This document shows, one piece after another, positions 1 through 38,190 of a stretch of DNA of 40,174 nt. Within the stretch, counting starts at the first letter, position 1, and every line of letters begins with the position of its first letter. A model generated the notes under the pieces. It made no database searches. It was not told the DNA's origin and saw only the letters and a list, made by a program, of their open reading frames with translations. Made by a program: the position numbers and the translations under genes. This stretch comes from a virus. The stretch spans positions 1 to 40,174 of the IMG/VR virus record IMGVR_UViG_3300049846_001705, one strand, 5' to 3'.

Positions 1-139
1 TGGCCTTAAAAGTGGCCTTAAAAGTGGCCTTAAAAGTGGCCTTAAAAGTGGCCTTAAAAGTGGCCTTAAAAGTGGCCTTAAAAGTGGCCTTAAAAGTGGC
101 CTTAAAAGTGGCCTTAAAAGTGGCCTTAAAAGTGGCCTT
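1..139. repeat. 12-bp minisatellite, 11 perfect copies
   Basis: The unit TGGCCTTAAAAG is repeated eleven times without a mismatch (1-132), followed by a partial copy; it probably continues beyond the left edge. The period equals that of the coding repeats to its right, and its complement shares the AAGGCCA core with units such as CTAAGGGGCCAA. In the frame used by the neighbouring genes it has a stop (TAA) in every unit, so it is not coding in that register; two other frames are open but have no start inside the window. Confidence 0.95.
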
Positions 140-153
140 TCAGGATGTCAGGA

Positions 154-204
154 TTACCCCATTATAATAGATTTATTAGTTCCTCCATATTCATAAATGT
201 TCAT
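154..204 (-). pseudogene. Truncated array unit (16 codons)
   Basis: An ATG overlapping the stop of the preceding gene opens MNIYEYGGTNKSIIMG and stops at once. A GGAGGA follows the start codon but no ATG-AAT comes after it. It looks like the broken last unit of the leftward block, lying just before the minisatellite. It may be untranslated. Confidence 0.4.
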
Positions 205-377
205 ATATCATCCTTTATTTGACTACTTAATTGGGAATCTATCTGGTTACATAGTTGTTCCACCAGTTGGCTCCATATATGACCAGATAGTTGGTTCGAT
301 ATTTGACCCCTTAGATACCATAATGGGTCCCTAAGTTGATACCATAATTTCTGCTTTAATTGCTCCTGAATGTTCAT
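201..377 (-). CDS. xQLx-repeat small protein, partly degenerate
   Basis: 58 codons beginning MNIQEQLKQKLWYQL and ending KDDI. Tetrads are visible as WYQL, SNQL, WSQL, VEQL, CNQI, DSQL and SSQI, with more substitutions than in the next gene upstream. The ATG at 377 overlaps the TGA of that gene, and GGAGGATTT precedes it, which fixes this start rather than an in-frame ATG four codons earlier. Function unknown; a leucine-rich amphipathic repeat protein by composition. Confidence 0.7.
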   Translation of the reverse strand: MNIQEQLKQKLWYQLRDPLWYLRGQISNQLSGHIWSQLVEQLCNQIDSQLSSQIKDDI

Positions 378-541
378 AAATCCTCCCATAGTTGGTCCAA
401 TAGTTGGCCTCTTAGTTGGTTATCTAGTTGGTTCCTTAGTTGGTCCAATAGTTGGTCCCATAGTTGGTGCAAGAGTTGGTAATCTAGTTGGCCATATAGT
501 TGCTCCCTTAGTTGGCCATATAATTGGTTATTAATGTTCAT
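374..541 (-). CDS. xQLx-repeat small protein, near-perfect
   Basis: 55 residues: MNIN, twelve tetrads (NQLY, GQLR, EQLY, GQLD, YQLL, HQLW, DQLW-like units) and a terminal EDL. Gln and Leu are invariant (CAA CTA or CAA CTC), while the residue after Leu varies among Tyr, Arg, Asp, Leu and Trp. It overlaps the upstream gene by 11 bases and the downstream one by four. It is among the least decayed members of the leftward block. The antisense strand is also open but lacks start signals. Confidence 0.75.
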   Translation of the reverse strand: MNINNQLYGQLREQLYGQLDYQLLHQLWDQLLDQLRNQLDNQLRGQLLDQLWEDL

Positions 542-728
542 AGTCTTCCATTAGTTGGTAATCTAGTTGGTCCAATAGTTGGTCCGATAGTTGGACATAT
601 AATTGGTCCAATAGTTGGTTATCTAGTTGCCAATATAGTTGGTCCCCTAGTTGGTCCCTTAATTGAGTATATAATTGGTCCAAGAGTTGGTTATCTAGTT
701 GGTTCCATAATTGGTTATTAATGTTCAT
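531..728 (-). CDS. xQLx-repeat small protein, near-perfect
   Basis: 65 residues beginning MNINNQLWNQL, followed by about fourteen tetrads and ending MEDYEH. The C-terminus diverges from the usual EDL because the coupling motif has shifted: the next ATG lies inside the last codons. Blocks such as DNQLLDQLY occur twice, indicating internal duplication. A 20-base gap separates it from the upstream gene. Function unknown. Confidence 0.75.
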   Translation of the reverse strand: MNINNQLWNQLDNQLLDQLYTQLRDQLGDQLYWQLDNQLLDQLYVQLSDQLLDQLDYQLMEDYEH

Positions 729-748
729 AGTCTAATCCCATAAATTTG

Positions 749-910
749 TCAATTGAAATATAATTCGTCATACAGGACCTTTAATATACGATATGGTTCG
801 CCAAATATTTCGTTATATAGTGAATCATCTAATTGATCATACACTTGGCACCATAGTTGCTCCCCCACTTGGCTATATAAGTGATTCCATAATTGATCTC
901 TAATACTCAT
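749..910 (-). CDS. Array member, half repeat and half unique
   Basis: 53 residues from ATG 910. The first 30 keep the pattern (MSIRDQLWNHLYSQVGEQLW, then CQVYDQLDDSLY); the last 20 are unique sequence. The chosen start matches the family start context and lies three bases after the upstream stop; a longer in-frame reading to 949 would run into that gene. This member shows a repeat passing into unrelated sequence within one gene. Confidence 0.65.
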   Translation of the reverse strand: MSIRDQLWNHLYSQVGEQLWCQVYDQLDDSLYNEIFGEPYRILKVLYDELYFN

Positions 911-911
911 A

Positions 912-1076
912 TCATATCCAATTAGTAACCACCCTTTGATACAACACAATAAACATCTCCCACCTTATCCTATTACAATACATTTGAGCAGAATGTTCAG
1001 TAGCAACTATAAACACACGATCCAATTCATGGTACATAGAAGACTTGTTATGATCTAATTCAAGAGAGATATTCAT
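912..1076 (-). CDS. Small array protein without clear tetrads
   Basis: 54 codons beginning MNISLELDHNKSSMY and ending RVVTNWI. Its ATG overlaps the TGA of the upstream frame and is preceded by GAGGATA, so the coupling signal survives although the xQLx repeat is gone. Only the start and position tie it to the family. Function unknown. Confidence 0.55.
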   Translation of the reverse strand: MNISLELDHNKSSMYHELDRVFIVATEHSAQMYCNRIRWEMFIVLYQRVVTNWI

Positions 1077-1252
1077 ACATTATCCTCAAATTGGTGCCGA
1101 TATAATTGATCCATTAGTAGGTCCTGCATTTGGTCCCTCAAAGGAATGTACAGTTTGGTATATTGTTCAGGCACCAGTATCACCTCAAGTTGGTCATATA
1201 GTTTGTACTGTAGATGATAATATATCCTCCGGTAGAAGATAGATGTGGTCAT
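1073..1252 (-). CDS. Possible array member overlapping its neighbour
   Basis: A 59-codon frame running to a stop that overlaps the next ATG. It contains YDQLEVIL, LRDQMQDLLMDQLY and ends QFEDNV, which are recognisable family remnants. The only ATG lies 59 bases inside the upstream gene and has no ribosome-binding site, and the canonical start after GGAGGA at about 1223 appears mutated. It may therefore be a unit that lost its start and is read from an internal GTG, or not at all. Confidence 0.4.
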   Translation of the reverse strand: MTTSIFYRRIYYHLQYKLYDQLEVILVPEQYTKLYIPLRDQMQDLLMDQLYRHQFEDNV

Positions 1253-1382
1253 ATATTTGGTTCTTCAGGGTCCAATATATTTCCTGCCTGACTGGCCTAA
1301 TTAGAATTTCATAGTCCAATAGATAATATAGTTCGGCATGTAGCCGACAGCGCCACTCTCTTAGTTTACAATCAATATCCAT
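1194..1382 (-). CDS. Array member, diverged
   Basis: 62 residues from ATG 1382 (MDIDCKLREWRCRLHAELYY). MDID corresponds to the family MNIE, and the start overlaps the upstream stop by 11 bases, so this start is preferred over in-frame ATGs at 1415 and 1463. Leu/Trp/Tyr-rich spacing persists (ELYYLLDYEI, KNQIYDHIY), and LPEDI stands in a position like the usual terminal EDL, with GGAGGA encoded beneath it. Function unknown. Confidence 0.55.
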   Translation of the reverse strand: MDIDCKLREWRCRLHAELYYLLDYEILIRPVRQEIYWTLKNQIYDHIYLLPEDILSSTVQTI

Positions 1383-1521
1383 GGTCATCCACTCCAAATA
1401 TACATTCCATTTCATACTCAAACCTTGCAATGTCGCCCCACCATATAGGAGGCATCTCCACATTCCTCATTACATAACCCCTTAAAGCCCAATATAAATC
1501 AATTCTACAATAAATTTCCAT
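1372..1521 (-). CDS. Small array protein, diverged
   Basis: 49 residues beginning MEIYCRIDLYWALRGYV and ending VDDHGY. AAAGG lies six bases before the ATG. The N-terminus still resembles the family (MEI, alternating Leu/Tyr), and the 3' end overlaps the next start. About 100 bases separate it from the upstream gene and hold no supported frame beyond 17 codons. Confidence 0.5.
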   Translation of the reverse strand: MEIYCRIDLYWALRGYVMRNVEMPPIWWGDIARFEYEMECIFGVDDHGY

Positions 1522-1622
1522 ATAAAGCCTTTACTGAAAGTTTCACTATTACAATCATATCATATTACAAAGCACTAGTGCAATATAAATCTCCCTTACC
1601 CTGTGGGCTGTTATGCAATATA

Positions 1623-1814
1623 TCACCGATGTTTTTTATTTCTTTCAAGGGTATCATTCCTCAATTGCATCATTAATTCTTGCCTAAGCGGATACAGTGC
1701 ATTGTATAGATCATTTCTAGGTTGTTTTATATTTTGGTTCATAGTATGCCATAGAGTAGTATGCAACCACTCTAAGGCGTTTAGTTTATCTACAAGGTTT
1801 ATTTCTCTCCTCAT
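1623..1814 (-). CDS. Small Leu/Trp-rich protein at the head of the leftward array
   Basis: 63 residues from an ATG that overlaps the stop of the 202-residue gene (ATGA). The sequence is basic, with weak tetrad-like spacing (LEWLHTTLWHTM, LYNALYPLRQELMMQLRND). It could be an old, decayed array member co-translated with its larger neighbour. Function unknown. Confidence 0.55.
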   Translation of the reverse strand: MRREINLVDKLNALEWLHTTLWHTMNQNIKQPRNDLYNALYPLRQELMMQLRNDTLERNKKHR

Positions 1815-2419
1815 AATCGTGCAAGCCCTCCACTTTCTACAAATGCAAGAGATCTCTCAATAATCTCTTTAGCATCTGTAGGATTGAATACCCAATGATA
1901 GTATACTGCTATTTGATGATATAAAGAATGCCCTTCTGGAAATTCATCATCTGTGAATACTCTCATGGGCTTTACGGTATTAGGACTGTGCCCTCCCCAT
2001 TGCCCCCATAATGTAACAGTTCTTTTAGTAAATCGTCTCTCGTATACACTATTATTATGCCAGGTGTATACTTCTATAGGATCGGTTTCTATATATCTAC
2101 CCTCAATATCAGGTATTCTATTAAGTGCATCTAGGAAACTAATGTTTTCTTTTTTTGCGAGTCTTAATGCTTGGTTATGTCTTTTGTTTAGTCTTCTATG
2201 TATTTCTTTAGTAAATGTTAGTTTATCTAGTTTAGGATTTGTATTTCTATCATATTCTTCTTGTGCTTCATACATTAATTGTAAATTTAGAATACTTGAG
2301 TTTTTTGAGTCGAGATTTGAATAATCTACTAAATCATAGTTTTTGGTTAGGTGTTGTTGGTATATTAGTGTATCGACATTGAGTACATCATCTTTTTCTT
2401 TTTGTGTGAGGGATTTCAT
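1811..2419 (-). CDS. Hypothetical protein, 202 aa
   Basis: A soluble, charged protein beginning MKSLTQKEKDDVLNVDTL. The start at 2419 is chosen because AGGAG sits seven bases before it; the frame stays open 22 codons further but without a site. The N-terminal half is helical and Lys/Asn-rich (about residues 55-90, KEIHRRLNKRHNQALRLAKK); the C-terminal half is Trp/Tyr/His-rich (TLWGQWGGHSPN, HQIAVYYHWVFNP). It is the only full-size gene in the leftward block and leads it, so its promoter probably drives the tiny genes downstream. I recognise no family. Confidence 0.7.
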   Translation of the reverse strand: MKSLTQKEKDDVLNVDTLIYQQHLTKNYDLVDYSNLDSKNSSILNLQLMYEAQEEYDRNTNPKLDKLTFTKEIHRRLNKRHNQALRLAKKENISFLDALNRIPDIEGRYIETDPIEVYTWHNNSVYERRFTKRTVTLWGQWGGHSPNTVKPMRVFTDDEFPEGHSLYHQIAVYYHWVFNPTDAKEIIERSLAFVESGGLARL

Positions 2420-2450
2420 AATAATCTCCTGAATCTCCAAAATAGTCATT

Positions 2451-2480
2451 AATATAATAATAGCAGAAATTGGGTGACAA
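2451..2480 (-). promoter_or_regulatory. Sigma70-type promoter for the leftward array
   Basis: On the minus strand TTGTCA (2480-2475) and TATATT (2456-2451) are separated by 18 bases, about 30 bases before the start at 2419. The interval 2420-2596 between the divergent blocks holds no gene. A TATAAT at about 2540 on the plus strand could serve the rightward block but lacks a good -35. Confidence 0.5.
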
Positions 2481-2596
2481 TACAAATAGTATTTTATGGA
2501 TTTGCAAATATTTCTTAGATGGTGAATTGTGTTTGCAATGTATAATATGGTATGTTATGCTTAATTGTAGGTCGGTAATTCATTTGAGGAAGATTT

Positions 2597-2776
2597 ATGA
2601 ATATTGAGAGGCAACTAGCGGACCAACTATATGGCCAACTATGGGACCAACTATGGGTCCAACTATGGGTCCAACTATATGACCAAGTAGGCGACCAATT
2701 ATGGATCCAACTAAGGGGCCAACTATGGCTCCAACTATGGGTCCAACTATGGGGCCAACTAGAGGAGGATTTATGA
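2597..2776 (+). CDS. xQLx-repeat small protein, near-perfect (head of rightward array)
   Basis: 59 residues: MNIERQLA, thirteen further tetrads (DQLY, GQLW, DQLW, VQLW, VQLY, DQVG, DQLW, IQLR and so on) and EEDL. The ribosome site GAGGAAGATTT precedes the ATG. Trp dominates the fourth position here. The terminal GAGGAGGATTTATGA encodes EEDL-stop and supplies the site and start of the next gene. Another frame through the same bases reads Pro-Thr-Met-Gly and is a shadow. Confidence 0.75.
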   Translation: MNIERQLADQLYGQLWDQLWVQLWVQLYDQVGDQLWIQLRGQLWLQLWVQLWGQLEEDL

Positions 2777-2982
2777 ACCTCAGAGACGAATTTTATAAAG
2801 GCATTCGTGGTAAAGAAAGTTTATATTCCGACTTGGATGATATACTTACAGAGGCTACAAATTATGAAGTTAATAATTTTCTTTGTTATGAAATACGGTG
2901 GCCTATGACTGATATATTATTTTATACCATTGAGGTGCCAATAAAGGGGTATGGTGCTGAATATTTAAGGAATGACATATGA
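2773..2982 (+). CDS. Array member, unique sequence
   Basis: 69 residues beginning MNLRDEFYKGIRGKESLY. The tetrads are gone, but the start context (GGAGGATTTATGAAC) is intact and the end RNDI-TGA overlaps the next ATG. Acidic and aromatic. The longer in-frame reading from 2701 runs through the repeat of the previous gene and is rejected. Function unknown. Confidence 0.65.
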   Translation: MNLRDEFYKGIRGKESLYSDLDDILTEATNYEVNNFLCYEIRWPMTDILFYTIEVPIKGYGAEYLRNDI

Positions 2983-3182
2983 ATATTTATAAAGAATTAC
3001 TTGAACGGGGCTCCTATTTAGGCAATCTGTTGAGGGGCCTGGCCACAAATGATTTCACGATGACCGGAACTCAATCGGTAACAGCAATCTTTTATGTACC
3101 TTTACATGGAAAATTGTACCTTGGGTTAAGTGATCATATTGAGAATGATATATTCCATTATCGGATGTTGGGGGATTTATGA
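2979..3182 (+). CDS. Array member, unique sequence
   Basis: 67 residues: MNIYKELLERGSYLGNLLRG at the start and MLGDL at the end. Both flanking overlaps are ATGA. GDL (GGG GAT TTA TGA) is a relic of the EDL/ribosome-site module. Interior is unlike its neighbours. Function unknown. Confidence 0.6.
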   Translation: MNIYKELLERGSYLGNLLRGLATNDFTMTGTQSVTAIFYVPLHGKLYLGLSDHIENDIFHYRMLGDL

Positions 3183-3379
3183 GTAATTTTGCAGTGAGAT
3201 TACATAAGGTTGTGCCATGCCGAATATCTGAGGATTTGGGATGGAGTTTGCGAGACGACTTGGAACTGAAAATAGTGAAAAGGCTTGAGGAAGAGATTTA
3301 TACATTACTCCAGAATATTCTATGGCACGATATATCAGATGAATTAAAAAATCAACTAAAGGTTGTGTATGAATCTTGA
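3179..3379 (+). CDS. Array member with faint tetrads
   Basis: 66 residues beginning MSNFAVRLHKVVPCR. Residues 20-63 form a probable amphipathic helix with spaced Leu/Trp (WSLRDDLELKIVKRLEEEIY, LKNQLKVV). It overlaps the gene before it by four bases and the next by 11. Function unknown. Confidence 0.6.
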   Translation: MSNFAVRLHKVVPCRISEDLGWSLRDDLELKIVKRLEEEIYTLLQNILWHDISDELKNQLKVVYES

Positions 3380-3566
3380 GATTAATACATGGAAGACTAG
3401 AGACCCGTTGTGGTGTGAGTTATGCAATCAGTGCGGTGACATACCATGGGAATACTTATGGTATGGGCCATGGGAAGAACTATGTGAACAATTGGGCGAT
3501 CAACTGAAAGAACAGTTGGATAATCAATTGAGGAAAGATTTATATCTACATAAAACTTATATTTAA
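3369..3566 (+). CDS. Array member with C-terminal tetrads
   Basis: 65 residues. MNLEINTWKTRDPLWCEL opens the protein, a Trp-rich unique middle follows (WEYLWYGPWEEL), and the C-terminal third returns to tetrads (CEQL, GDQL, KEQL, DNQL). Start 3369 is preferred over TTG 3363 because ATGAAT sits in the usual overlap. It shows mixing of repeat and non-repeat segments inside one frame. Confidence 0.65.
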   Translation: MNLEINTWKTRDPLWCELCNQCGDIPWEYLWYGPWEELCEQLGDQLKEQLDNQLRKDLYLHKTYI

Positions 3567-3577
3567 GGATTGTTATC

Positions 3578-3724
3578 ATGAATGTCTCGTTAAATTTCAT
3601 TGATCATTTACATGACGATTTGAACCGTATGGTTAAAGCGGATATACAGGGCCCGGTTTGGGTATATTTTAGTGATCTACGATGGGAGATGTATCTCGTA
3701 TTAAGTTGGATAGGATGTTGTTGA
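3578..3724 (+). CDS. Small array protein, 48 aa
   Basis: MNVSLNFIDHLHDDLNRMV opens a frame ending VLSWIGCC. AAGGA lies eight bases before the ATG. It fills the gap between two coupled neighbours and keeps the MNx start. Function unknown. Confidence 0.5.
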   Translation: MNVSLNFIDHLHDDLNRMVKADIQGPVWVYFSDLRWEMYLVLSWIGCC

Positions 3725-3743
3725 TTTGTGTATAAGTATTTTA

Positions 3744-4013
3744 ATGGAATATTGTATGGAAAGTGAGTTATCTCCTTTGGTTCAACCTAAGGAGTGGCAA
3801 AGTATGATCAATATATACCATGCTCTTAAAGTAAAGCATGTTAGATCTTTAACATCTCAATTATATAATATTTGGTGGTTTTGGCAGCTCAGTTATTTGA
3901 AGGAGCCTAGTCTAGATAGAATAAGCCCTAATGAGGAGTTGTTTGAAATTCTATATTGCCGCATAGAAGATGAATTGTATATAGCTATAATGGAGGATTT
4001 AAATGAATATTGA
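3744..4013 (+). CDS. Array member, 89 aa
   Basis: MEYCMESELSPLVQPKEWQ at the start; the end is EDELYIAIMEDLNEY, where GAGGATTTAAATGAAT is a slightly shifted form of the array coupling motif. Start is uncertain (TTG 3726, ATG 3744 or ATG 3756). Function unknown. Confidence 0.55.
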   Translation: MEYCMESELSPLVQPKEWQSMINIYHALKVKHVRSLTSQLYNIWWFWQLSYLKEPSLDRISPNEELFEILYCRIEDELYIAIMEDLNEY

Positions 4014-4041
4014 ACTTTTGGTGATATTTAGGGGTGAGTAA
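4003..4041 (+). pseudogene. Truncated array unit (12 codons)
   Basis: MNIELLVIFRGE follows the expected ribosome site and ATGAATATTGA start, then stops at TAA, which overlaps the next ATG by one base. It is an intact start module with almost no body; it may serve only to carry ribosomes to the next gene. Confidence 0.4.
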
Positions 4042-4322
4042 TGGGAGTATCTAATGGTAATATTCGAACATCATTAAGAAATGAAATTTCATATGGTTAT
4101 GGGAGTAATTATGTGAATCCTTTTGATGAAAACCCTACGAGGAAAACAAAACACAAATCCTTAGCACCATATTGCGGCAAATTTGAAAGAGAGGATGACT
4201 TATATCTTTGGAGGTTACATATTTTGGAACTTAAAACAAAATTATGTGATAGTGTACATCACAACGTTGAACGTAACCTGAAAGGAGAGGATGGGGATTC
4301 ATTTTGGATGGATGGAGATTGA
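4041..4322 (+). CDS. Array member, 93 aa
   Basis: MGVSNGNIRTSLRNEISYG opens a basic N-terminal half (PTRKTKHKSLAPYCGK); the C-terminal half is acidic (EDGDSFWMDGD). Start overlaps the preceding TAA. No tetrads and no recognised domain. Confidence 0.5.
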   Translation: MGVSNGNIRTSLRNEISYGYGSNYVNPFDENPTRKTKHKSLAPYCGKFEREDDLYLWRLHILELKTKLCDSVHHNVERNLKGEDGDSFWMDGD

Positions 4323-4380
4323 TGTGTGGAAACCAAATATAAAAGCCATTGATGATGAATTGTATATGTATATAATATAA
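4312..4380 (+). pseudogene. Truncated array unit (22 codons)
   Basis: MEIDVWKPNIKAIDDELYMY resembles the MNIE start and overlaps the previous gene's 3' end. It ends at TAA just before the next ribosome site. Probably a decayed unit, possibly still translated by coupling. Confidence 0.35.
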
Positions 4381-4390
4381 GGTTAATGTT

Positions 4391-4582
4391 ATGTTTAATA
4401 TTTGTGACAATTTAAGACAGAAATCATCTAAGAATAGTATATGGAATTATATCAATTTTAACATTTCAAATGATATATGGTGCTCGTTATATGAAAATTT
4501 ATATAACAAATTTGCAACATCATCACATTTGGTTATTCGTGATCTTGGGCACACAATTAGGCAACAACAGGATGACTTATGA
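4391..4582 (+). CDS. Array member, 63 aa
   Basis: MFNICDNLRQKSSKNSIWNY at the start, ending RQQQDDL with an ATGA overlap. AAGG precedes the start by eight bases. Asn/Ser-rich interior; no domain recognised. Confidence 0.55.
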   Translation: MFNICDNLRQKSSKNSIWNYINFNISNDIWCSLYENLYNKFATSSHLVIRDLGHTIRQQQDDL

Positions 4583-4740
4583 ATATTGAACAATCATTAT
4601 ATCAATATAACAAATTAAGGTATCAATTGGGAAATAATGTGAGGGTACATTTGAATGATACATCATGGAGTAAATTGGTTTCTAATTTATGGCGACCATT
4701 AAGAACAACATTAAAAGTCCAACTGGAGGAGGATTTATGA
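4579..4740 (+). CDS. Array member, 53 aa
   Basis: MNIEQSLYQYNKLRYQLGNN opens the frame; it ends RTTLKVQLEEDL with the fully preserved stop/site/start module. Here the two ends of the family are conserved while the middle has diverged. Confidence 0.6.
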   Translation: MNIEQSLYQYNKLRYQLGNNVRVHLNDTSWSKLVSNLWRPLRTTLKVQLEEDL

Positions 4741-4883
4741 ATATTGAAAGCCAACTAGGGAACCAACTATATGGCCAACTATATGGCCAACTATGGGTCC
4801 AAATAAGGGGCCGACTATATTGGCAACTATGGGACCAACTATGGGACCAACTAGAGGTCCAACTATGGGATGGTTATGAATAA
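4737..4883 (+). CDS. xQLx-repeat small protein
   Basis: 48 residues: MNIESQLG then NQLY, GQLY, GQLW, VQIR, GRLY, WQLW, DQLW, DQLE, VQLW and a changed end DGYE. The start at 4737 follows GGAGGATTT and overlaps the upstream TGA; the in-frame ATG at 4689 belongs to a shadow reading of the previous gene. Confidence 0.7.
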   Translation: MNIESQLGNQLYGQLYGQLWVQIRGRLYWQLWDQLWDQLEVQLWDGYE

Positions 4884-5088
4884 AATAAACGATCACTTAC
4901 TAACTCAAAATTTGATAAACTTAAAATTTTCAATAGCCGTTGATTTATATGACTATAGCCCATTCAAAGATACAAATAGAGATAATTTGGCAATTTCATT
5001 TCCAATGGGTGGTGCACTTTATCAAATTAATCAATTAATCTTTTCTGAATTGTCTTTAAAACGGAATAATTTATCTGAGGAATTATGA
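4876..5088 (+). CDS. Array member, 70 aa
   Basis: MNKINDHLLTQNLINLKFS opens the frame inside the last codons of the repeat gene before it; it ends NNLSEEL with TTATGA overlapping the next start. Hydrophobic/Asn-rich, no tetrads, no family recognised. An ATG two codons earlier is equally possible. Confidence 0.55.
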   Translation: MNKINDHLLTQNLINLKFSIAVDLYDYSPFKDTNRDNLAISFPMGGALYQINQLIFSELSLKRNNLSEEL

Positions 5089-5279
5089 AAGACATTTCAC
5101 GCCAAATATATGCAATTAGATATAAAAAAATATGTGCACCTATAGATAAATTCCTGAAAATTCAAAATCCAGATAATAATTGGCAAAACCGAGGCTGGCA
5201 AGATGACATTATCAGAAAACTTTACGGTGAATTGGAATTGAACATAAAACTATCATTATCAGATATATTTAAAGCATAA
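5085..5279 (+). CDS. Array member, 64 aa, last of its run
   Basis: Basic protein beginning MKDISRQIYAIRYKKICAP and ending LSLSDIFKA. ATGA overlap at the start. Its stop overlaps the 3' end of a convergent gene by 11 bases, so transcription from both sides meets here. Confidence 0.55.
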   Translation: MKDISRQIYAIRYKKICAPIDKFLKIQNPDNNWQNRGWQDDIIRKLYGELELNIKLSLSDIFKA

Positions 5280-5460
5280 AAGAATTTGGATTATTTGGAT
5301 CCAATAAATCATCAATAATATGTAAAGCCAATTCATCAAAAAATTTATCATGTAAAGGACCACAAAGTTTGGCATGATTAGCAGGACCAACTACATTTTC
5401 AACCACTGTAATCAATTTAGCATATAATCTATAATAAATCAATGCTTCAAAATCGGTCAT
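5269..5460 (-). CDS. Small protein of the inserted leftward pair
   Basis: 63 residues, MTDFEALIYYRLYAKLITVV at the start. GGAGGACTTGAATT lies before the ATG and at the same time encodes the end of the upstream gene (SEDLNYDRF), the same stop/site/start logic as elsewhere in the array but on the opposite strand. Function unknown. Confidence 0.6.
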   Translation of the reverse strand: MTDFEALIYYRLYAKLITVVENVVGPANHAKLCGPLHDKFFDELALHIIDDLLDPNNPNSFML

Positions 5461-5665
5461 AATTCAAGTCCTCCGATAATTGTTGAAGAAGGTTTCCCTT
5501 ATATCTAGTGACAAAAATATCAAACATCTCACATTTCGTATTGCACAACCATTCATAGGGAATATAATCGGATAAAATGGAACCATTAAGAGCAGGCATT
5601 TTGGATTGAATTTCTTTATGAACTAACAAATATAATTTTATCGTTATATAGTTATCAAATTCCAT
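5447..5665 (-). CDS. Small protein of the inserted leftward pair
   Basis: 72 residues beginning MEFDNYITIKLYLLVHKEIQ, with GAGG just before the start. It contains the array-like end LLQQLSEDLNYDRF. It is led by a good sigma70-type promoter, so this two-gene island is transcribed separately from the flanking rightward genes. Confidence 0.6.
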   Translation of the reverse strand: MEFDNYITIKLYLLVHKEIQSKMPALNGSILSDYIPYEWLCNTKCEMFDIFVTRYKGNLLQQLSEDLNYDRF

Positions 5666-5689
5666 ATTACCTCATATTGTTTTTATTTT

Positions 5690-5719
5690 ATCATATCACA
5701 AAAAAGCAGAACTAGTCAA
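5690..5719 (-). promoter_or_regulatory. Sigma70-type promoter for the leftward pair
   Basis: TTGACT (5719-5714) and TATGAT (5695-5690) on the minus strand with an 18-base spacer, about 25 bases before the start at 5665. Confidence 0.6.
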
Positions 5720-5726
5720 ATATTTG

Positions 5727-5756
5727 TTGATTTCTAGATTAAAAGTGTTGTAAAAT
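5727..5756 (+). promoter_or_regulatory. Possible sigma70-type promoter restarting the rightward array
   Basis: TTGATT (5727-5732) and TAAAAT (5751-5756) with an 18-base spacer, 40 bases before the start at 5796. It lies in the 130-base divergent gap and is weaker than the opposite promoter. Confidence 0.4.
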
Positions 5757-5795
5757 AGAAATAGTGTGAAATGATACTATATTTGATGGATTTTT

Positions 5796-6020
5796 ATGGA
5801 AACAAATTATATTGAATACAGTGATAGATTTGGATATATTATAGGAACCATACCCGGAGTGCAACTATTGAAATATATTGCTTCACAACATAACATAAAA
5901 TTACTGAATATAACCGAGGAAAGAGGATGGGTTCGAACAACATTATACTTTACTTTGGGTGGTGATGTTGATGACATAAAAAATGCAATGTTTCATTTAT
6001 GTAATATTTTAAAGAAATGA
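5796..6020 (+). CDS. Small protein, 74 aa
   Basis: METNYIEYSDRFGYIIGTI opens the frame; it ends MFHLCNILKK. The region GIIGT..LKYIASQHNIKLLNI..RGWVRTTLYFTLGGD looks like a compact alpha/beta fold. GGATTTTT precedes the start. It does not carry the repeat and differs in composition from the tetrad genes. Confidence 0.6.
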   Translation: METNYIEYSDRFGYIIGTIPGVQLLKYIASQHNIKLLNITEERGWVRTTLYFTLGGDVDDIKNAMFHLCNILKK

Positions 6021-6214
6021 TTATGTTAATCGTTGATTGGGTTACTTCTGATTTAGTTTTTACATTAAGAAATCCCTTAATCATTGAATTATATTATGAG
6101 GCAAAAATGTATGGCGAATATTTAAGATGGCCATGGGGTGTCATGATTTTTGATTCCATTTTAGACGATGCAATAAGATATGGTGACATAAAAAACGAGG
6201 AAAAAGGCCCTTAA
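6017..6214 (+). CDS. Small protein, 65 aa
   Basis: MIMLIVDWVTSDLVFTLRNP at the start with an ATGA overlap to the gene before. Hydrophobic N-terminus, not clearly a membrane segment. Ends NEEKGP, 12 bases before the next start. Function unknown. Confidence 0.55.
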   Translation: MIMLIVDWVTSDLVFTLRNPLIIELYYEAKMYGEYLRWPWGVMIFDSILDDAIRYGDIKNEEKGP

Positions 6215-6226
6215 AAGGAATTTAAT

Positions 6227-6478
6227 ATGAATATCAATGATCAAATATATACTAATTTTCGACATGAATTGAGGGAACAAATACGGAGCCAACTATGGGG
6301 CCAACTAGGGGGCCAATTATGGGACCAATTAGGAAGTCAAGTATGGGACCAACTATGGGACCAAGTAGGAGATCAAATATATGACCTATTATGGGGCCAA
6401 CTAGATAACCAACTATTGGGCCAACTATATGCCCAACTAAGGGGCCAACTATTGGGCCAACTATGGGAGGATTTATGA
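6227..6478 (+). CDS. xQLx-repeat small protein, longest perfect run
   Basis: 83 residues. MNINDQIYTNFRHELREQI is followed by about fifteen tetrads (SQLW, GQLG, GQLW, DQLG, SQVW, DQLW, DQVG, DQIY, DLLW and so on) and WEDL. AAAAGGAATTTAAT precedes the start. The last 60 bases are nearly identical to those of the next gene, showing recent duplication. Confidence 0.75.
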   Translation: MNINDQIYTNFRHELREQIRSQLWGQLGGQLWDQLGSQVWDQLWDQVGDQIYDLLWGQLDNQLLGQLYAQLRGQLLGQLWEDL

Positions 6479-6826
6479 ATATTGAGAGGCAACTAATAGG
6501 CCAACTAAGGGGCCAACTAGGGGCCCAACTATATTGGCAACTAGATAACCAACTATTGGGCCAACTATATTGGCAACTAGATAACCAACTATTGGGCCAA
6601 CTATATGCCCAACTAAGGGGCCAACTATTGGGCCAACTAAGGGACCAACTACGGGAGGATTTATGAATATTGAGAGGCAACTAAGGGGCCAACTATATAC
6701 CCAACTAAGGGGCCAACTAAGGGACCAACTATATGGCCAACTATGGGGCCAACTGTTGGGCCAAATAGGGTGGCAACTAGGAAACCAACTAGGGGGCCAA
6801 CTAAGCGGGCAACTGGAGGAGGATTT
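6261..6826 (+). repeat. Dense block of 12-bp coding repeats with segmental duplications
   Basis: About 45 units of the CAACTANNNNNC type run through three consecutive genes, interrupted only by the stop/site/start modules at about 6466 and 6653. Multi-unit segments recur: the stretch encoding DNQLLGQLY occurs at about 6399, 6541 and 6577. Differences fall mainly on codons 1 and 4 of each unit. Confidence 0.85.
6475..6666 (+). CDS. xQLx-repeat small protein, near-perfect
   Basis: 63 residues: MNIERQLI, then GQLR, GQLG, AQLY, WQLD, NQLL, GQLY, WQLD, NQLL, GQLY and so on to REDL. The eight-residue block WQLDNQLL is present twice in tandem. Start fixed by GGAGGATTT and ATGA overlap. Confidence 0.75.
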   Translation: MNIERQLIGQLRGQLGAQLYWQLDNQLLGQLYWQLDNQLLGQLYAQLRGQLLGQLRDQLREDL

Positions 6827-6830
6827 ATGA
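6663..6830 (+). CDS. xQLx-repeat small protein, near-perfect
   Basis: 55 residues: MNIERQLR, GQLY, TQLR, GQLR, DQLY, GQLW, GQLL, GQIG, WQLG, NQLG, GQLS, GQLE, EDL. The fourth residue samples Arg, Tyr, Trp, Leu, Gly and Ser while Gln-Leu stays fixed. Coupled at both ends. Confidence 0.75.
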   Translation: MNIERQLRGQLYTQLRGQLRDQLYGQLWGQLLGQIGWQLGNQLGGQLSGQLEEDL

Positions 6831-7024
6831 ATATTAAGAAAAATCGATTTACAATTCAAATGGAAACCCGACGTGTTTGCATTTCAAATGAAATTTTTGA
6901 TGAAATATCCAAAAAAATCGGTAGGAAATTATATTGGAATATAATGCAAACCCAAATAAGTTATACAAGGCTATATGCTAATGTTCAGTTAAATATAGAA
7001 TCACAACTAAAGGAGGATTTATGA
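6827..7024 (+). CDS. Array member, unique middle, conserved ends
   Basis: 65 residues. MNIKKNRFTIQMETRRVC begins a basic unique region; the last twelve residues (LNIESQLKEDL) again match the family. It sits between two near-perfect repeat genes, so a diverged body is flanked by intact start and stop modules. The frame open from 6743 is a shadow. Confidence 0.65.
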   Translation: MNIKKNRFTIQMETRRVCISNEIFDEISKKIGRKLYWNIMQTQISYTRLYANVQLNIESQLKEDL

Positions 7025-7137
7025 ACATTAATAACCAACTGGACCAACTATCGGACCAACTATATGCCCAACTATGGGGCCAACTAGGGGACCAATTAGG
7101 AAGTCAAGTATGGGACCAACTGGAGGGCCAACTATAG
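7021..7137 (+). CDS. xQLx-repeat small protein, short
   Basis: 38 residues: MNINNQLDQL, SDQLYAQLWG, QLGDQLGSQV, WDQLEGQL, ending in TAG. The TAG is the first base-level break of the EDL module: CTATAGGAGGATTT keeps the ribosome site, but the frame stops nine bases before the next ATG instead of overlapping it. Confidence 0.65.
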   Translation: MNINNQLDQLSDQLYAQLWGQLGDQLGSQVWDQLEGQL

Positions 7138-7145
7138 GAGGATTT

Positions 7146-7349
7146 ATGAATATTGAATATAAATTATGGAAAACAAAAACACAATATGAAATAGAGCATC
7201 CTTTATATGACTCACTACACAATCAATTGGATGACACCATACACGAATCTTTATATGAATCATTTTTTGAAATATTGGAGTTTTCATTAATAGATCAACT
7301 CTATAATCATATAATATGGCAAATATCAGAATCATTAGAATTATTATGA
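7146..7349 (+). CDS. Array member with faint tetrads
   Basis: 67 residues from MNIEYKLWKTKTQYEIEHPL to SESLELL. Spaced motifs LHNQLDDTI and LIDQLYNHI recall the repeat. Start follows GGAGGATTT; the end TTATTATGA overlaps the next ATG. Confidence 0.65.
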   Translation: MNIEYKLWKTKTQYEIEHPLYDSLHNQLDDTIHESLYESFFEILEFSLIDQLYNHIIWQISESLELL

Positions 7350-7558
7350 AAATTATAGCAATTTACAATGATAAAAAAACACTATCAACAAAATACTTGA
7401 CAACTAAACAGGATTTGCTATTATACTGTAAAAGTATATTTGAAATGAATCCTGGTCACATTAAAGTATATCATGATAAGCATGATATCAAAATTTTTGA
7501 TTTTATTAACGGTAATAGGCTTGTAGTTGGATTAACTAAAACCGATGAGTTTAACTAA
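7346..7558 (+). CDS. Small protein, 70 aa
   Basis: MKIIAIYNDKKTLSTKYLTT opens a small alpha/beta-like protein ending LTKTDEFN. ATGA overlap at the start, 14-base overlap with the next gene. Lys-rich, without repeats, so a conventional small phage gene rather than a tetrad gene. Function unknown. Confidence 0.6.
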   Translation: MKIIAIYNDKKTLSTKYLTTKQDLLLYCKSIFEMNPGHIKVYHDKHDIKIFDFINGNRLVVGLTKTDEFN

Positions 7559-7832
7559 ATTTCTTTGCCAAAACAGAAGTGACATCCATACAATCTTTAG
7601 AAAGATTCCCGACTGGTCTATTAGCATAAAGCAATTCTTTATCATTTTAACAAAGGATGATTTATTCATCAAGGTTCAACTCGTTAATGAGCCATCAGTG
7701 GTTTATTCATATAAAGGAAATCATATCCATATCATTTTAAATAATGATGAAGAGGTTATTGTTTCTTGTATCGGCGATCCTAGAGTTATACAAACCAAAA
7801 TAACAGAGGCATTGGAGAATGTAGATGCATAA
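7545..7832 (+). CDS. Small protein, 95 aa
   Basis: Begins MSLTKFLCQNRSDIHTIFRK; the middle (LFIKVQLVNEPSVVYSYKGN) looks like beta strands and the end (VIQTKITEALENVDA) like a helix. Overlaps both neighbours. No family recognised. Confidence 0.6.
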   Translation: MSLTKFLCQNRSDIHTIFRKIPDWSISIKQFFIILTKDDLFIKVQLVNEPSVVYSYKGNHIHIILNNDEEVIVSCIGDPRVIQTKITEALENVDA

Positions 7833-8082
7833 GTTAAAATCCTTAGAATTGAATAATATTATACTCATAGGAGCATTTAGATATAGTCTAATAAAGGGGA
7901 ATTACATGACCGATATGGTCATTGCTTCCATTGAAGCGTCTTGGCACCTATTAGATGAATTGGATAAAGAAACAATTTATAATGAACTAATGGCAGCAAA
8001 AAAAGAGAATAAAATAAACAAACATAACCTTATTTGTTGGTCTAAGATTATCTCAAAATGTGAGGAAGAAAATGTTGAATAG
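7825..8082 (+). CDS. Small protein, 85 aa
   Basis: MHKLKSLELNNIILIGAFRY at the start; the rest is helical and charged (SIEASWHLLDELDKETIYNE). An alternative start is the ATG at 7906 (MTDMVIAS), preceded by AAAGGGGAATTAC. Overlaps the next gene by about 10 bases. Function unknown. Confidence 0.55.
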   Translation: MHKLKSLELNNIILIGAFRYSLIKGNYMTDMVIASIEASWHLLDELDKETIYNELMAAKKENKINKHNLICWSKIISKCEEENVE

Positions 8083-8413
8083 TATAACCAGAATTACGGA
8101 AAATAATCCATCTCAATGGAAAGCATTTGATGGAGATTATAACTTAATTTACATCATCTATAATAATGGCATACTCAAATTTCAAAAAATAGAAGATGGT
8201 GCATATCAATATGACACACTGATGTCTTGGAGTTCTGATGAGGTTTTTAGAATCAAATCTTCTCATTCTTCATATCTAAGTGAGGCAGAATTGCTTTATT
8301 ACCTCATAAAATTGGAAAAAGTCAAAATGCCATTATTGATAAAATGGTGGCATCTTTTGACATGGAAAATTCAAAGATACTTTGAGGTTAAACAATTGGA
8401 AAATAGTTTATAG
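8072..8413 (+). CDS. Small protein, 113 aa
   Basis: MLNSITRITENNPSQWKAFD follows GAGGAAGAAA; GTG 8060 is an alternative. The middle is beta-like (YNLIYIIYNNGILKFQKIED) and the C-terminus is Trp/Lys-rich (LIKWWHLLTWKIQRYF), possibly membrane-associated. Its stop lies inside the palindromic tandem repeat described separately. Confidence 0.6.
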   Translation: MLNSITRITENNPSQWKAFDGDYNLIYIIYNNGILKFQKIEDGAYQYDTLMSWSSDEVFRIKSSHSSYLSEAELLYYLIKLEKVKMPLLIKWWHLLTWKIQRYFEVKQLENSL

Positions 8414-8433
8414 TAAACTGTTTATAGTAAACT
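8405..8433. promoter_or_regulatory. Tandem palindromic 14-bp repeat, operator-like
   Basis: GTTTATAGTAAACT occurs twice without a gap (8406-8419 and 8420-8433). Each copy is a dyad (GTTTA-TAG-TAAAC; the first extends to AGTTTA/TAAACT). Each contains TATAGT, a possible -10. It lies 12 bases before the start at 8445. This geometry suits a dimeric repressor site, but no regulator is evident in the window. Confidence 0.45.
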
Positions 8434-8444
8434 ATGGAAAAATA

Positions 8445-8609
8445 ATGACAAATAATGAAAAAAATATTGATTCTACTAAAATAAAGGAATATAATGATGA
8501 GTATGAGTATTTTTTATATTTAGAATATCAGAAAACATTAAATGAAATGGAAGAATTCTATGCCAACTTGGATGAATACCTTCAAACTGAAGAACAATAT
8601 AGATCTTAA
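8445..8609 (+). CDS. Small acidic protein, 54 aa
   Basis: MTNNEKNIDSTKIKEYNDEY at the start; strongly acidic and Tyr-rich (EYEYFLYLEYQKTLNEMEEF). Start chosen downstream of the palindromes with GGAAAA before it; the frame is open further upstream through the previous gene's end. Function unknown. Confidence 0.5.
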   Translation: MTNNEKNIDSTKIKEYNDEYEYFLYLEYQKTLNEMEEFYANLDEYLQTEEQYRS

Positions 8610-8793
8610 ATCAGAAGATATAGCCTCATACAATGGAGAATTGTACCGAGTAATGAAAACTATGCCCTCAAGGGGTTTAGTCAGATTACATAAAACTGAT
8701 GCACCATGTGGAATTACAGTAAATCTGTCTGAAGTGGTATTTGTTGGTAGAACTTTAACATATCAAATGATTATAAGTAAAAAATTTGAGTAA
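8572..8793 (+). CDS. Small protein, 73 aa
   Basis: MNTFKLKNNIDLKSEDIASY, then a compact beta-rich stretch (NGELYRVMKTMPSRGLVRLH, GITVNLSEVVFVGRTL). The start is not certain: ATG 8542 and 8560 are in frame. Overlaps the upstream gene. No family recognised. Confidence 0.55.
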   Translation: MNTFKLKNNIDLKSEDIASYNGELYRVMKTMPSRGLVRLHKTDAPCGITVNLSEVVFVGRTLTYQMIISKKFE

Positions 8794-8849
8794 AGATAAA
8801 TTTATGGGCACCGCACCAACTATGGGGCCAACCAAAGGAGGATTTATGA
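8794..8849 (+). pseudogene. 3' remnant of an array unit
   Basis: Read in the family frame this stretch gives NLWAPHQLWGQPKEDL-stop, the end of a tetrad gene with no start codon in front of it, directly upstream of an intact unit. It indicates loss of the 5' part by recombination or fusion with the upstream gene's 3' end. Confidence 0.45.
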
Positions 8850-9001
8850 ATATTGAGGGGCAATTATATGCCCAACTAAGGGACCAACTAAGGGACCAAC
8901 TATGGGACCAACTAAGGGACCAACTATGGGACCAACTATGTGACCGACTATTGGACCAACTATATGGCCAACTATATGGCCAACTATGGGAGGATTTATG
9001 A
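8846..9001 (+). CDS. xQLx-repeat small protein, near-perfect
   Basis: 51 residues: MNIEGQLY, AQLR, DQLR, DQLW, DQLR, DQLW, DQLC, DRLL, DQLY, GQLY, GQLW, EDL. AAAGGAGGATTT precedes the ATG. Regular alternation of DQLR and DQLW suggests recent duplication of a two-unit (24-base) block. Confidence 0.75.
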   Translation: MNIEGQLYAQLRDQLRDQLWDQLRDQLWDQLCDRLLDQLYGQLYGQLWEDL

Positions 9002-9859: not shown

Positions 9860-10129
9860 ATGTTACCATTTCTTGATTTGAAAAAAAATAAAAGTGATAT
9901 TCTTTTTTTCATCAAACTAATATTAATCATCTTTTTCACTATATTAGCCGTTGTTGGTGCTACTTTATTGTTATTGTTGGCACAATCGGCACTACTTATG
10001 CTATTTTGGAATATAATAGCAGATAATTTTGGATTAATCAAGATACCATCAATATGGGTATCATTATCAATTGTTGCCATATTAAACTTCATTGCAAGCG
10101 TTTTTCGTACACCATCAAATAAAGATTGA
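9860..10129 (+). CDS. Small membrane protein, 89 aa
   Basis: MLPFLDLKKNKSDILFFIKL begins the frame, with GGAGG five bases before the ATG. Two or three hydrophobic segments (about residues 16-45, LIIFFTILAVVGATLLLLLA, and 60-80, VSLSIVAILNFIASVF) separated by a short polar loop. Its stop codon lies within the -35 of the tmRNA promoter. Could be an inner-membrane or superinfection-exclusion protein; nothing identifies it further. Confidence 0.65.
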   Translation: MLPFLDLKKNKSDILFFIKLILIIFFTILAVVGATLLLLLAQSALLMLFWNIIADNFGLIKIPSIWVSLSIVAILNFIASVFRTPSNKD

Positions 10130-10155
10130 CATTTGATTGTTCTATGATATATACT
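10126..10155 (+). promoter_or_regulatory. Sigma70-type promoter of the tmRNA
   Basis: A consensus TTGACA (10126-10131) and TATACT (10150-10155) with an 18-base spacer. Transcription would begin within a few bases of the tmRNA 5' end (10165), so little 5' trimming would be needed. The -35 overlaps the stop codon of the upstream gene. Confidence 0.7.
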
Positions 10156-10164
10156 ATAAGAAAT

Positions 10165-10538
10165 GGGTCCAACTAGATTTCGACAGAATGACAGAAACCC
10201 ACATTTACAACACAATGATGATACTTGGCATTGTAAAAATGTATCAAATTCTAAGTGTAGACGAAAGTTTCACTGATTACGCACTGGCTGCGTGATCTGT
10301 ATCTTGTAGAGATGTTGGTGGTATACAAGGTGCATCATTCACAATCAACATATTGGATTGAATATTCATCAAATAGATCCAATATTACTAAATGATGAAG
10401 ATTGCAGTAACCTGCACTTTTATCTTGAAAGTTGGTTCAGTTTGATATAAGATAAGAGTAAAAAGAAATTGGACTATTGTTGTATACGATGTGATAGAAA
10501 CATTTTGGACGAGGGTGCGAATCCCTCTGGATCCACCA
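10165..10538 (+). ncRNA. ssrA: Transfer-messenger RNA (one-piece tmRNA)
   Basis: The 374-base RNA starts GGGTCCAACTAGATTTCGAC, which resembles the conserved tmRNA 5' end. The 5' GGGTCCA pairs with TGGATCC before the discriminator A and an encoded CCA (10536-10538). The T arm is GAGGG-TGCGAAT-CCCTC (10511-10527). The internal tag frame ends in ALAA-stop. tmRNA is alanylated on its tRNA-like half and, with SmpB, frees stalled ribosomes and tags the unfinished protein. No smpB gene is seen here, so host SmpB would be used. Phage-borne tmRNAs are known but uncommon. The T-loop has G where U55 is expected. Confidence 0.9.
10257..10295 (+). other. tmRNA proteolysis-tag reading frame
   Basis: GTA GAC GAA AGT TTC ACT GAT TAC GCA CTG GCT GCG TGA reads VDESFTDYALAA. 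The end YALAA matches the degron recognised by ClpXP-type proteases in many bacteria. The resume codon is inferred to be GTA, placed after TAAGT by analogy with the spacing in E. coli tmRNA; a resume one codon earlier or later cannot be excluded. Confidence 0.8.
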
Positions 10539-10558: not shown

Positions 10559-10819
10559 ATGACTATATTGATTACTTCAAAAAAGAATCCGCTAGATATT
10601 AAATGCAACAACTCAACATTATGTGCAATATCCTGTATTCCGGATGCAGGTGATACTAGGGTTGAATTTCACTTTGAACATGGTCCAAAATTGTGGGTTG
10701 CGTATTATCAACAAGATTCTGATACAATAGTATCATTGATTAATGCTTATGCTAGAAATGCGGTAATTCCTCGTGACAGTAAATTTCACATAGGAAATCA
10801 TATAATAACTTTTTCATAA
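10559..10819 (+). CDS. Hypothetical protein, 86 aa
   Basis: MTILITSKKNPLDIKCNNST opens a small beta-rich protein with strands such as TRVEFHFEHGPKLWVAYY and an end KFHIGNHIITFS. AAGGTGATAT precedes the ATG. It lies 20 bases after the tmRNA and 14 before the next gene. No family recognised. Confidence 0.65.
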   Translation: MTILITSKKNPLDIKCNNSTLCAISCIPDAGDTRVEFHFEHGPKLWVAYYQQDSDTIVSLINAYARNAVIPRDSKFHIGNHIITFS

Positions 10820-10833
10820 AATAGGAGAATAAA

Positions 10834-11190
10834 ATGACAGTAGAACTAAAATTTACCTTTGAAGATCAAGATGATTTATCTAAATTTGCCACAAAATTAG
10901 AAGATCAACAAAAAGTAAGGAGAGTGCTATATGATTTTTACATAAAATTACGGGCTATGTGTAAATATGGTATCGATTCCGATTTGAGAATCACACCAAA
11001 AAATATTCAAGATGAGTTTTTAAATAAAGAGCATCTTGAATCCTTTATGAAAGAAAATGGCGTATCTTCTCCGGAGACTATTTGTAATATAATTGCATTT
11101 GGTCAAGAAGTAATGGCAAACAAAATACGAGATCTTTTCCATGAAGAACTCAATAAAGAAAATATTGACGTTTATGATGAATTCCTATAA
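10834..11190 (+). CDS. Hypothetical helical protein, 118 aa
   Basis: MTVELKFTFEDQDDLSKFAT at the start, with TAGGAG seven bases before the ATG. A short strand is followed by long charged helices (KLEDQQKVRRVLYDFYIKLR; EVMANKIRDLFHEELNKENI). Acidic overall. It ends 12 bases before a strong terminator and is the last gene of the rightward unit. Function unknown. Confidence 0.65.
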   Translation: MTVELKFTFEDQDDLSKFATKLEDQQKVRRVLYDFYIKLRAMCKYGIDSDLRITPKNIQDEFLNKEHLESFMKENGVSSPETICNIIAFGQEVMANKIRDLFHEELNKENIDVYDEFL

Positions 11191-11202
11191 GATACTACAA
11201 TA

Positions 11203-11235
11203 AATACCCTAAGGATTTAGGGTATTTTCCTTTTT
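11203..11235 (+). terminator. Intrinsic terminator
   Basis: A perfect 10-base stem AATACCCTAA / TTAGGGTATT with loop GGAT, followed by TTCCTTTTT. It ends the rightward transcription unit of the array, tmRNA and following genes. Confidence 0.85.
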
Positions 11236-11316
11236 ATGAAAACATTCACAACATTTTTAGAAGCAACTTCATACAATAATTGGATTCAGCCAAATACAGA
11301 TGATCTAGAACTTTAA
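11236..11316 (+). CDS. Micro-ORF, 26 codons
   Basis: MKTFTTFLEATSYNNWIQP opens right after the terminator and stops at 11316, four bases into the convergent oxidoreductase gene. Its first residues resemble the MKTF..FLE starts common in T4-like structural proteins, which suggests a relic of such a gene. No ribosome site. Confidence 0.25.
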   Translation: MKTFTTFLEATSYNNWIQPNTDDLEL

Positions 11317-12437
11317 GATAATATCAATTCAGCAGCATCTTTTCCCATAGCACTCCCTAGCGCCACACCCATGCCACTTGTGCGGATAGCAATATAAACG
11401 TTAGGTTCAACTTCTTTGATTATGGGCAATTGACCACATTCGGCCCCCATACCTAATATACCCGCCCATTTCATGTCAATAGTGAATGGTTTATTAGGAA
11501 ACACTACTGTTTTTAGCAAATTTATTAAAATTCCCTGTATGTTTTCTGTAGTGGACATTTCGTTGGTATTTTCTGAATCAGGATAATGATGTCTACCACC
11601 ACCGATTAATATCCTACTATCAATTTCCCTAAAAAAGAAATAACCACGGTCAAAATGGAATCCACCATTAAATGGTATATTTTCGAGTTGATTTGTTATA
11701 GCGACCTGCACTCGATATGGATTAATTTCATTTGGAAAAAACTTTCCAGAGAAGCCGTCAGTTGCAAATAATAATTTATGGGACTTAAATATTCCAATAT
11801 TAGTCTCAAGGTTAGTACCGTTATATGACTGCACCTCAACACCTGTTAATATAGTTGTACCTAGTTTGGTTGCGTTCCTGTAAAGGCTATTAAACAGTTT
11901 ACCTGTATTAATTGTACCCTCACCTACACTACTTATAAGATTTTCCACATTTTGAAACCCAAAAGCATTTATAGATTCATTACTTAGTTTATAGTTATTT
12001 TCAATTCCAAAACGTCGATAAATTTCCGTATTGGCTGTGTCCATAAAATGGATTGAATCGTCAAATAAAGTTTTTTCATTTTTGGTAAATATTTCATAAT
12101 TGCCACATTGAGAAAATCCAATATCTTCAATTTCACTTAACAATAAACCAAGACCATTATATCGCCGTTCAACTAAGGAGAATACTTCGTCTATAGATTT
12201 TCCTATTTTGATCATTTCATATAATTCAGAGAGACTACCAAAACAAGCAAAACCAGCATTTCTTGTTGTGGCGCCGTATGGTATAGGGGATCTTTCTAAT
12301 ATTGTGACATTTAATTTTGGCTGGGATTTGAGTATCCAGTATGCTGAAGTTAGTCCGACTATGCCAGCACCAACTATTATGACATCAGACGAATTTAATA
12401 TATACTCACTCTCCCAATAAGACAAATTTCGGTTCAT
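11313..12437 (-). CDS. FAD-dependent oxidoreductase (DAO family)
   Basis: 374 residues. The N-terminus has the Rossmann motif VGAGIVG (G23-x-G25-x-x-G28), an acidic residue ending strand 2 (E48) and the signature TTRNAGFACFGS (about 57-68); the C-terminus carries the second FAD-binding glycines (RTSGMGVALGSAMG). DAO-family enzymes oxidise amine or amino-acid C-N bonds with FAD; the substrate is not predictable. The opening NLSYWE and NAGFACFGS closely recall Bacteroidota homologues as I remember them. It is flanked by small phage genes on the same strand, has no clear ribosome site, and is a likely acquired metabolic gene. Confidence 0.85.
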   Translation of the reverse strand: MNRNLSYWESEYILNSSDVIIVGAGIVGLTSAYWILKSQPKLNVTILERSPIPYGATTRNAGFACFGSLSELYEMIKIGKSIDEVFSLVERRYNGLGLLLSEIEDIGFSQCGNYEIFTKNEKTLFDDSIHFMDTANTEIYRRFGIENNYKLSNESINAFGFQNVENLISSVGEGTINTGKLFNSLYRNATKLGTTILTGVEVQSYNGTNLETNIGIFKSHKLLFATDGFSGKFFPNEINPYRVQVAITNQLENIPFNGGFHFDRGYFFFREIDSRILIGGGRHHYPDSENTNEMSTTENIQGILINLLKTVVFPNKPFTIDMKWAGILGMGAECGQLPIIKEVEPNVYIAIRTSGMGVALGSAMGKDAAELILS

Positions 12438-38114: not shown

Positions 38115-38190
38115 TGGTGGCACTACCTTGATTTGCACAAGGGACCGGTTGGATATGAATCAACTGTTCTACTACCTGAACTATAGTGCC
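38115..38190 (-). tRNA. tRNA-Met (anticodon CAT)
   Basis: The 76-base RNA folds as acceptor GGCACTA/TAGTGCC, D arm GTTC-AGGTAGTA-GAAC, anticodon arm GTTGA-TTCATAT-CCAAC (one A-C mismatch at 31-39), variable CGGTC, T arm CCTTG-TGCAAAT-CAAGG, discriminator A and encoded CCA. The full 1-72 pair argues against an initiator; elongator Met or, if modified to lysidine, Ile(AUA) is possible. T-loop position 55 is G rather than U. Confidence 0.9.

Follow-up and report, generated by a model that had tools for sequence, protein, structure and literature searches.

An intact one-piece tmRNA gene in a fragment of a T4-like phage genome

The window analyzed here is a 40,174-nucleotide stretch of viral DNA (IMG/VR record IMGVR_UViG_3300049846_001705) that carries a one-piece tmRNA gene (ssrA) on its plus strand at 10165-10538. 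Judged by its sequence the gene is real and intact, and we think it likely, by analogy with known tmRNAs, that its product is a functional phage tmRNA that rescues stalled ribosomes together with host SmpB during infection. A one-piece tmRNA with the tag VDESFTDYALAA is predicted by ARAGORN over 10165-10538 (+). Over the same interval the Rfam model for tmRNA, RF00023, gives an end-to-end match (model positions 1-374 of 374; 90.4 bits, E 5.1e-34, against a gathering cut-off of 47 bits). An initial annotation of the region 10126-10538, a span that comprises promoter and tmRNA, had proposed a full one-piece tmRNA with an encoded CCA and suggested a covariance-model search as a check; that search, the ARAGORN call and the CCA at 10536-10538 all bear the proposal out. 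The match is the lowest of three compared, at 90 bits for the window tmRNA, 124 for that of G015 and 132 for that of L121, a distantly related T4-like phage. A search for DNA relatives, near or distant, among 50,697 phage records gave no match.

Two other origins were considered and set aside. The model for permuted two-piece tmRNA (RF04321) reaches 17.7 bits, under its cut-off of 47, and the order of parts is that of a one-piece gene; because this order is unpermuted, derivation from an alphaproteobacterial two-piece tmRNA was rejected. A remnant of integration into a host ssrA would be a truncated 3' end accompanied by an integrase; the gene here is full length, and no integrase occurs among the scanned proteins, which represent part of the open reading frames.

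Anatomy of the predicted RNA

The ends of the RNA form the tRNA-like domain expected of a tmRNA. The 5' acceptor strand GGGTCCA (10165-10171, +) pairs along its whole length with TGGATCC at 10528-10534, and the stem includes G3:U70, the alanine identity pair read by alanyl-tRNA synthetase. The 3' part (10506-10538, +), delimited by the RF00023 match and base pairing, consists of the T-arm GAGGG-TGCGAAT-CCCTC, with G at position 55, followed by the acceptor 3' strand and ACCA. The acceptor strand departs from that of standard bacterial tmRNAs, among which GGGG was near universal in the set seen. Its exact form (pattern GGACGNGGGTGCRANTCCCNCNNNATCCACCA) was found in a single viral contig, L121, and in none of the bacterial genome contigs searched.

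The tag frame (10257-10295, +; ARAGORN, RF00023) encodes VDESFTDYALAA and has the features expected of a tmRNA tag: it resumes at GTA (10257), follows a U and an A at -5 and -4 (10252 and 10253), ends in the hydrophobic residues YALAA and closes with TGA. The A is equivalent to A86 of E. coli tmRNA, which sets the frame and whose mutation abolishes activity (PMC2481249). The valine resume codon is unusual, as the first tag residue is mostly alanine among the one-piece tmRNAs listed, with valine in the window, L475 and L515. The tag region proposed in the initial annotation is thus supported by both programs and by a stop-terminated frame with the YALAA end. Its statement that the tag fits no host group was not overturned either: a degenerate coding pattern for DESFTDYALAA had no exact match in the viral contigs (viral_contigs), and tag interiors are highly variable among the tmRNAs collected here.

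Pseudoknots, of which tmRNAs typically have four, were checked stem by stem because the covariance model leaves them unscored. A 9-bp helix, P5, can form around the tag stop codon (10275-10297, +). Upstream of the tag, PK1 (10213-10245, +; CAATG-AT-GATAC-TTGG-CATTG-TAAAAAT-GTATC) consists of stems 10213-10217/10229-10233 and 10220-10224/10241-10245, and all 10 pairs form. Downstream, complementarity points to PK2 at 10298-10351 (+), with stems 10298-10301/10331-10334 and 10304-10308/10324-10328 and a further helix at 10312-10317/10346-10351, and to PK3 at 10350-10399 (+), with stems at about 10350-10358/10377-10385 and 10365-10371/10393-10399, its first 2 nt being shared with the end of PK2. 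In the PK4 region (10408-10458, +) one stem of 10 bp is clear (10417-10426/10449-10458); the candidate for the other, AACC/GGTT at 10409-10412/10434-10437, has only 4 bp, and a hairpin at 10403-10416 would compete with it. Such pair counts are weak evidence in AT-rich sequence, as the pseudoknot pair total by itself is equaled or exceeded in 21 of 500 shuffles. Comparison of PK1 with its counterpart in L121 is more telling. Five of the ten pairs are altered on both sides and one on one side, yet 10/10 pair in both RNAs, and the loops are identical; these compensatory changes are evidence against decay. Of the pseudoknots that the initial annotation had named as a check, PK1-3 have complementary stems, which in PK1 covary, and PK4 is less certain.

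The usual nucleotides at the elbow of the tRNA fold are G18 and U55. The window tmRNA has G at 55 and A at 18, the latter by our placement of the D-loop. Among fetched tmRNAs with G55 and a classifiable D-loop, A18 is present in 169 of 169 and G18 in none, an association that was not built in, because the search patterns left the D-loop out. tmRNAs with U55 mostly have G18 (67), and 16 read as A18, some of them ambiguous in the pattern used. The same T-loop pattern occurs in many one-piece tmRNAs of Elusimicrobia, Patescibacteria, Omnitrophota and Acidobacteria MAGs, and the A18/G55 variant also occurs in phage two-piece tmRNAs. We therefore dropped the elbow as a novelty, since it is widespread in bacterial and phage tmRNAs rather than peculiar to this phage. 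A limited literature search found no description of the variant, which is no proof that it is undescribed. The sole tRNA in the window, a tRNA-Met(CAT) at 38115-38190 (-), has the T-loop TGCAAAT, hence G55, and a probable A18. A TGC T-loop was present in only 5 of 219 tRNAs parsed from the first 402 sequences, one of the five being probably part of a tmRNA, and the combination in this tRNA is rarer than the tmRNA variant itself.

Promoter and genomic surroundings

A sigma-70-like promoter lies directly upstream of the gene (10126-10155, +), with TTGACA at 10126-10131, an 18-nt spacer and TATACT at 10150-10155, for 11 of 12 consensus matches. The initial annotation had credited the tmRNA with its own strong promoter, and a site of this kind does stand ahead of it. 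Equally good sites number 3 in the AT-rich 40-kb window against a shuffle mean of 1.5, and a rough estimate from site density puts the chance of one occurring 9 nt before an RNA 5' end at ~2e-4. The quality of the promoter is thus unremarkable within the whole window, and it is the position that is telling and unlikely to be due to chance. As TATACT ends 9 nt 5' of the mature end, the start site would fall within a few bases of it. Our scans gave a single 12/12 site, at 25196-25168 (-), immediately ahead of the gp32-like gene; this suggests that the phage uses host-type promoters for strongly expressed genes.

Downstream of the tmRNA are two open reading frames without family matches, of 86 aa (10559-10819, +) and 118 aa (10834-11190, +), the latter with a weak homologue in the relative G001. 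No terminator was found between the tmRNA and these frames; the first good one is an intrinsic-terminator-like hairpin with a T-rich tail at 11202-11227 (+), the likely end of the unit. Both frames are therefore likely on the same transcript, and the tmRNA probably heads a short unit. The suggestion of a separately promoted copy accordingly holds only in part, for the promoter directly upstream but not for a separation from the two frames.

The window itself is, on its gene content, a fragment of a T4-like myovirus genome, with genes for a gp32-like protein, tail tube, baseplate cap, ribonucleotide reductase, thymidylate synthase, PhoH, primase and spanin. Over 13258-39452 the window is collinear with G001 (156.9 kb), which has the ribonucleotide reductase at 77%. 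No tmRNA was found in G001, in which the model has no match and ARAGORN gives two tRNAs only; its absence from a collinear relative indicates that the gene is accessory and dispensable in the lineage. Compared with G001, the block at 7.5-9.8 kb has the opposite orientation, marking the tmRNA region as variable, again as expected of an accessory gene. The phosphoesterase gene adjoining the tmRNA has homologues at 46% in G001 and G002; among viral contigs its relatives could not be confirmed. An FAD-dependent oxidoreductase of the DAO family is encoded at 11313-12437 (-), after the tmRNA unit and before the structural genes; it had no match in PHROG, and a homologue in G001 was not found. No SmpB gene was found in the window, which covers a fragment of the genome, or in any other phage record tested, so the tmRNA would depend on host SmpB.

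The left part of the window is rich in repeats. In 1-9000, short open reading frames are traversed by tandem arrays with a 12-bp unit (about CCAACTATGGGA). One repeat frame reads (xxQL)n and ends WEDL-stop, the stop overlapping the next ATG, with GGAGG in front; these frames resemble small genes coupled in a chain. The 5' end of the tmRNA (10163-10175) carries the 13-mer ATGGGTCCAACTA, which recurs in a repeat array at 2653, 2665 and 2737, perhaps by chance. Positions 1-139, the left end of the contig, are a perfect TGGCCTTAAAAG array of 11.6 copies, and the contig may have broken there.

Relation to known tmRNAs and probable function

Phage tmRNAs are more common than the "few lineages" of the initial annotation: a survey from 2022 detected them in 402 of 18,146 phage genomes (PMC9004378), so the window tmRNA is not categorically new. 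Examples are known from mycobacteriophages including Bxz1 and Wildcat and from Bacillus phage G (PMC4131195), and huge phages carry tmRNA and in some cases also SmpB (PMC7162821), which was not found in the window. The find is sound but ordinary, as many phages are already known to carry such a gene. Like these, the window has a complete ssrA, and the phages concerned are virulent or large. In OM43 phage Melnitz an early promoter immediately precedes the tmRNA (PMC9004378), an arrangement like that in the window. The Melnitz RNA, however, is two-piece, of alphaproteobacterial type and under a glutamine riboswitch, whereas the window RNA is one-piece, with no riboswitch detected nearby or upstream.

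Measured against a standard one-piece bacterial tmRNA, the layout is the same, with the G3:U70 domain, a tag followed by P5, pseudoknots and CCA. The differences are the Val (GTA) resume codon in place of the usual Ala, the A18/G55 elbow, a variant common in some bacterial phyla, and residence in a phage. The tmRNA of L121 (IMGVR_UViG_3300019487_000003), which is T4-like with a gp32 homologue, is likewise one-piece with a TGC T-loop and shares the GGGTC/GATCC acceptor, the PK1 loops and the tag end EYALAA. It differs in its tag (ANQDDYFEYALAA), its Ala resume codon and its location beside a tRNA cluster, RNase P RNA and tRNA nucleotidyltransferase. The 167.8-kb L121 record encodes a class A RNase P RNA at 8629-8905 (+; RF00010, 187.7 bits), nine tRNAs, the nucleotidyltransferase and an RNA-repair-type HAD protein.

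In the reading we favor, host-type RNA polymerase would transcribe the tmRNA from its own promoter, and trimming would yield an RNA of 374 nt that already ends in CCA; host alanyl-tRNA synthetase would charge it with alanine via G3:U70. With host SmpB, the RNA would enter ribosomes stalled on broken messages; translation would switch to the GTA codon, VDESFTDYALAA would be added and the ribosome freed. Where messages are cut during infection, such rescue may keep ribosomes free to make phage proteins. The initial annotation had suggested this role and an altered tag as functions, and both seem plausible. The sequence itself shows the anatomy; for charging, SmpB binding, tagging and a gain to the phage we argue from what is known of tmRNA biology. 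Function is supported by the full-length RF00023 match, the tag call, the acceptor stem and T-arm, PK1-3 and P5, the U/A signal, the paired changes in PK1 and the putative promoter, and further by the retention of a one-piece tmRNA in L121 and, by analogy, the position of the Melnitz gene behind an early promoter. Against it would count the failure to find SmpB, the lack of a tmRNA in G001, a score below those of L121 and G015, and the unclear PK4.

The same absence from G001 would suit a passenger gene, recombined in from a host or another phage, playing no part in infection and perhaps decaying, as would the variable surroundings, with the 7.5-9.8-kb inversion and an oxidoreductase unmatched in G001. 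We consider this unlikely, as the essential elements are all intact, the promoter is rightly placed and PK1 has been kept by paired changes relative to L121. The AANDENY segment of the E. coli-type tag is read by the adaptor SspB, and VDESFTDYALAA keeps the protease-facing YALAA end without that segment. Competition with the host's tmRNA could change what becomes of tagged proteins, for instance through different degradation, and the lack of an exact tag match among viral contigs fits this idea; but tag interiors vary so widely among tmRNAs here that a private one needs no special purpose, and we regard tag replacement as doubtful, somewhat more so than a passenger gene. A bolder version, in which the RNA is tuned to replace host tagging with a tag evading adaptor-mediated degradation and forms, with the G55 tRNA-Met, an altered-elbow RNA set escaping host T-loop enzymes, strikes us as improbable.

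A phage RNA that resembles tmRNA and acts against that of the host also has a precedent: the RNA of mycobacteriophage DS6A, with a tRNA-like domain only, is proposed to inhibit host trans-translation (PMC4131195; PMC11915505). By sequestering host SmpB, the window RNA could block host trans-translation in the same manner. The DS6A RNA, however, is hardly more than a tRNA-like domain, while the window tmRNA keeps its tag frame, resume signal and pseudoknots, and a decoy seems to us very improbable, the least probable of these readings. Ribosome rescue by a functional tmRNA remains our preferred account.

A phage rescue RNA working with borrowed host SmpB is an idea already in the literature, for which we found little experimental support. 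The window adds an intact one-piece tmRNA to a T4-like lineage in which a collinear relative has none. This phage, with the gene, and G001, lacking it, make a clean pair in which to ask what a phage gains from a tmRNA.
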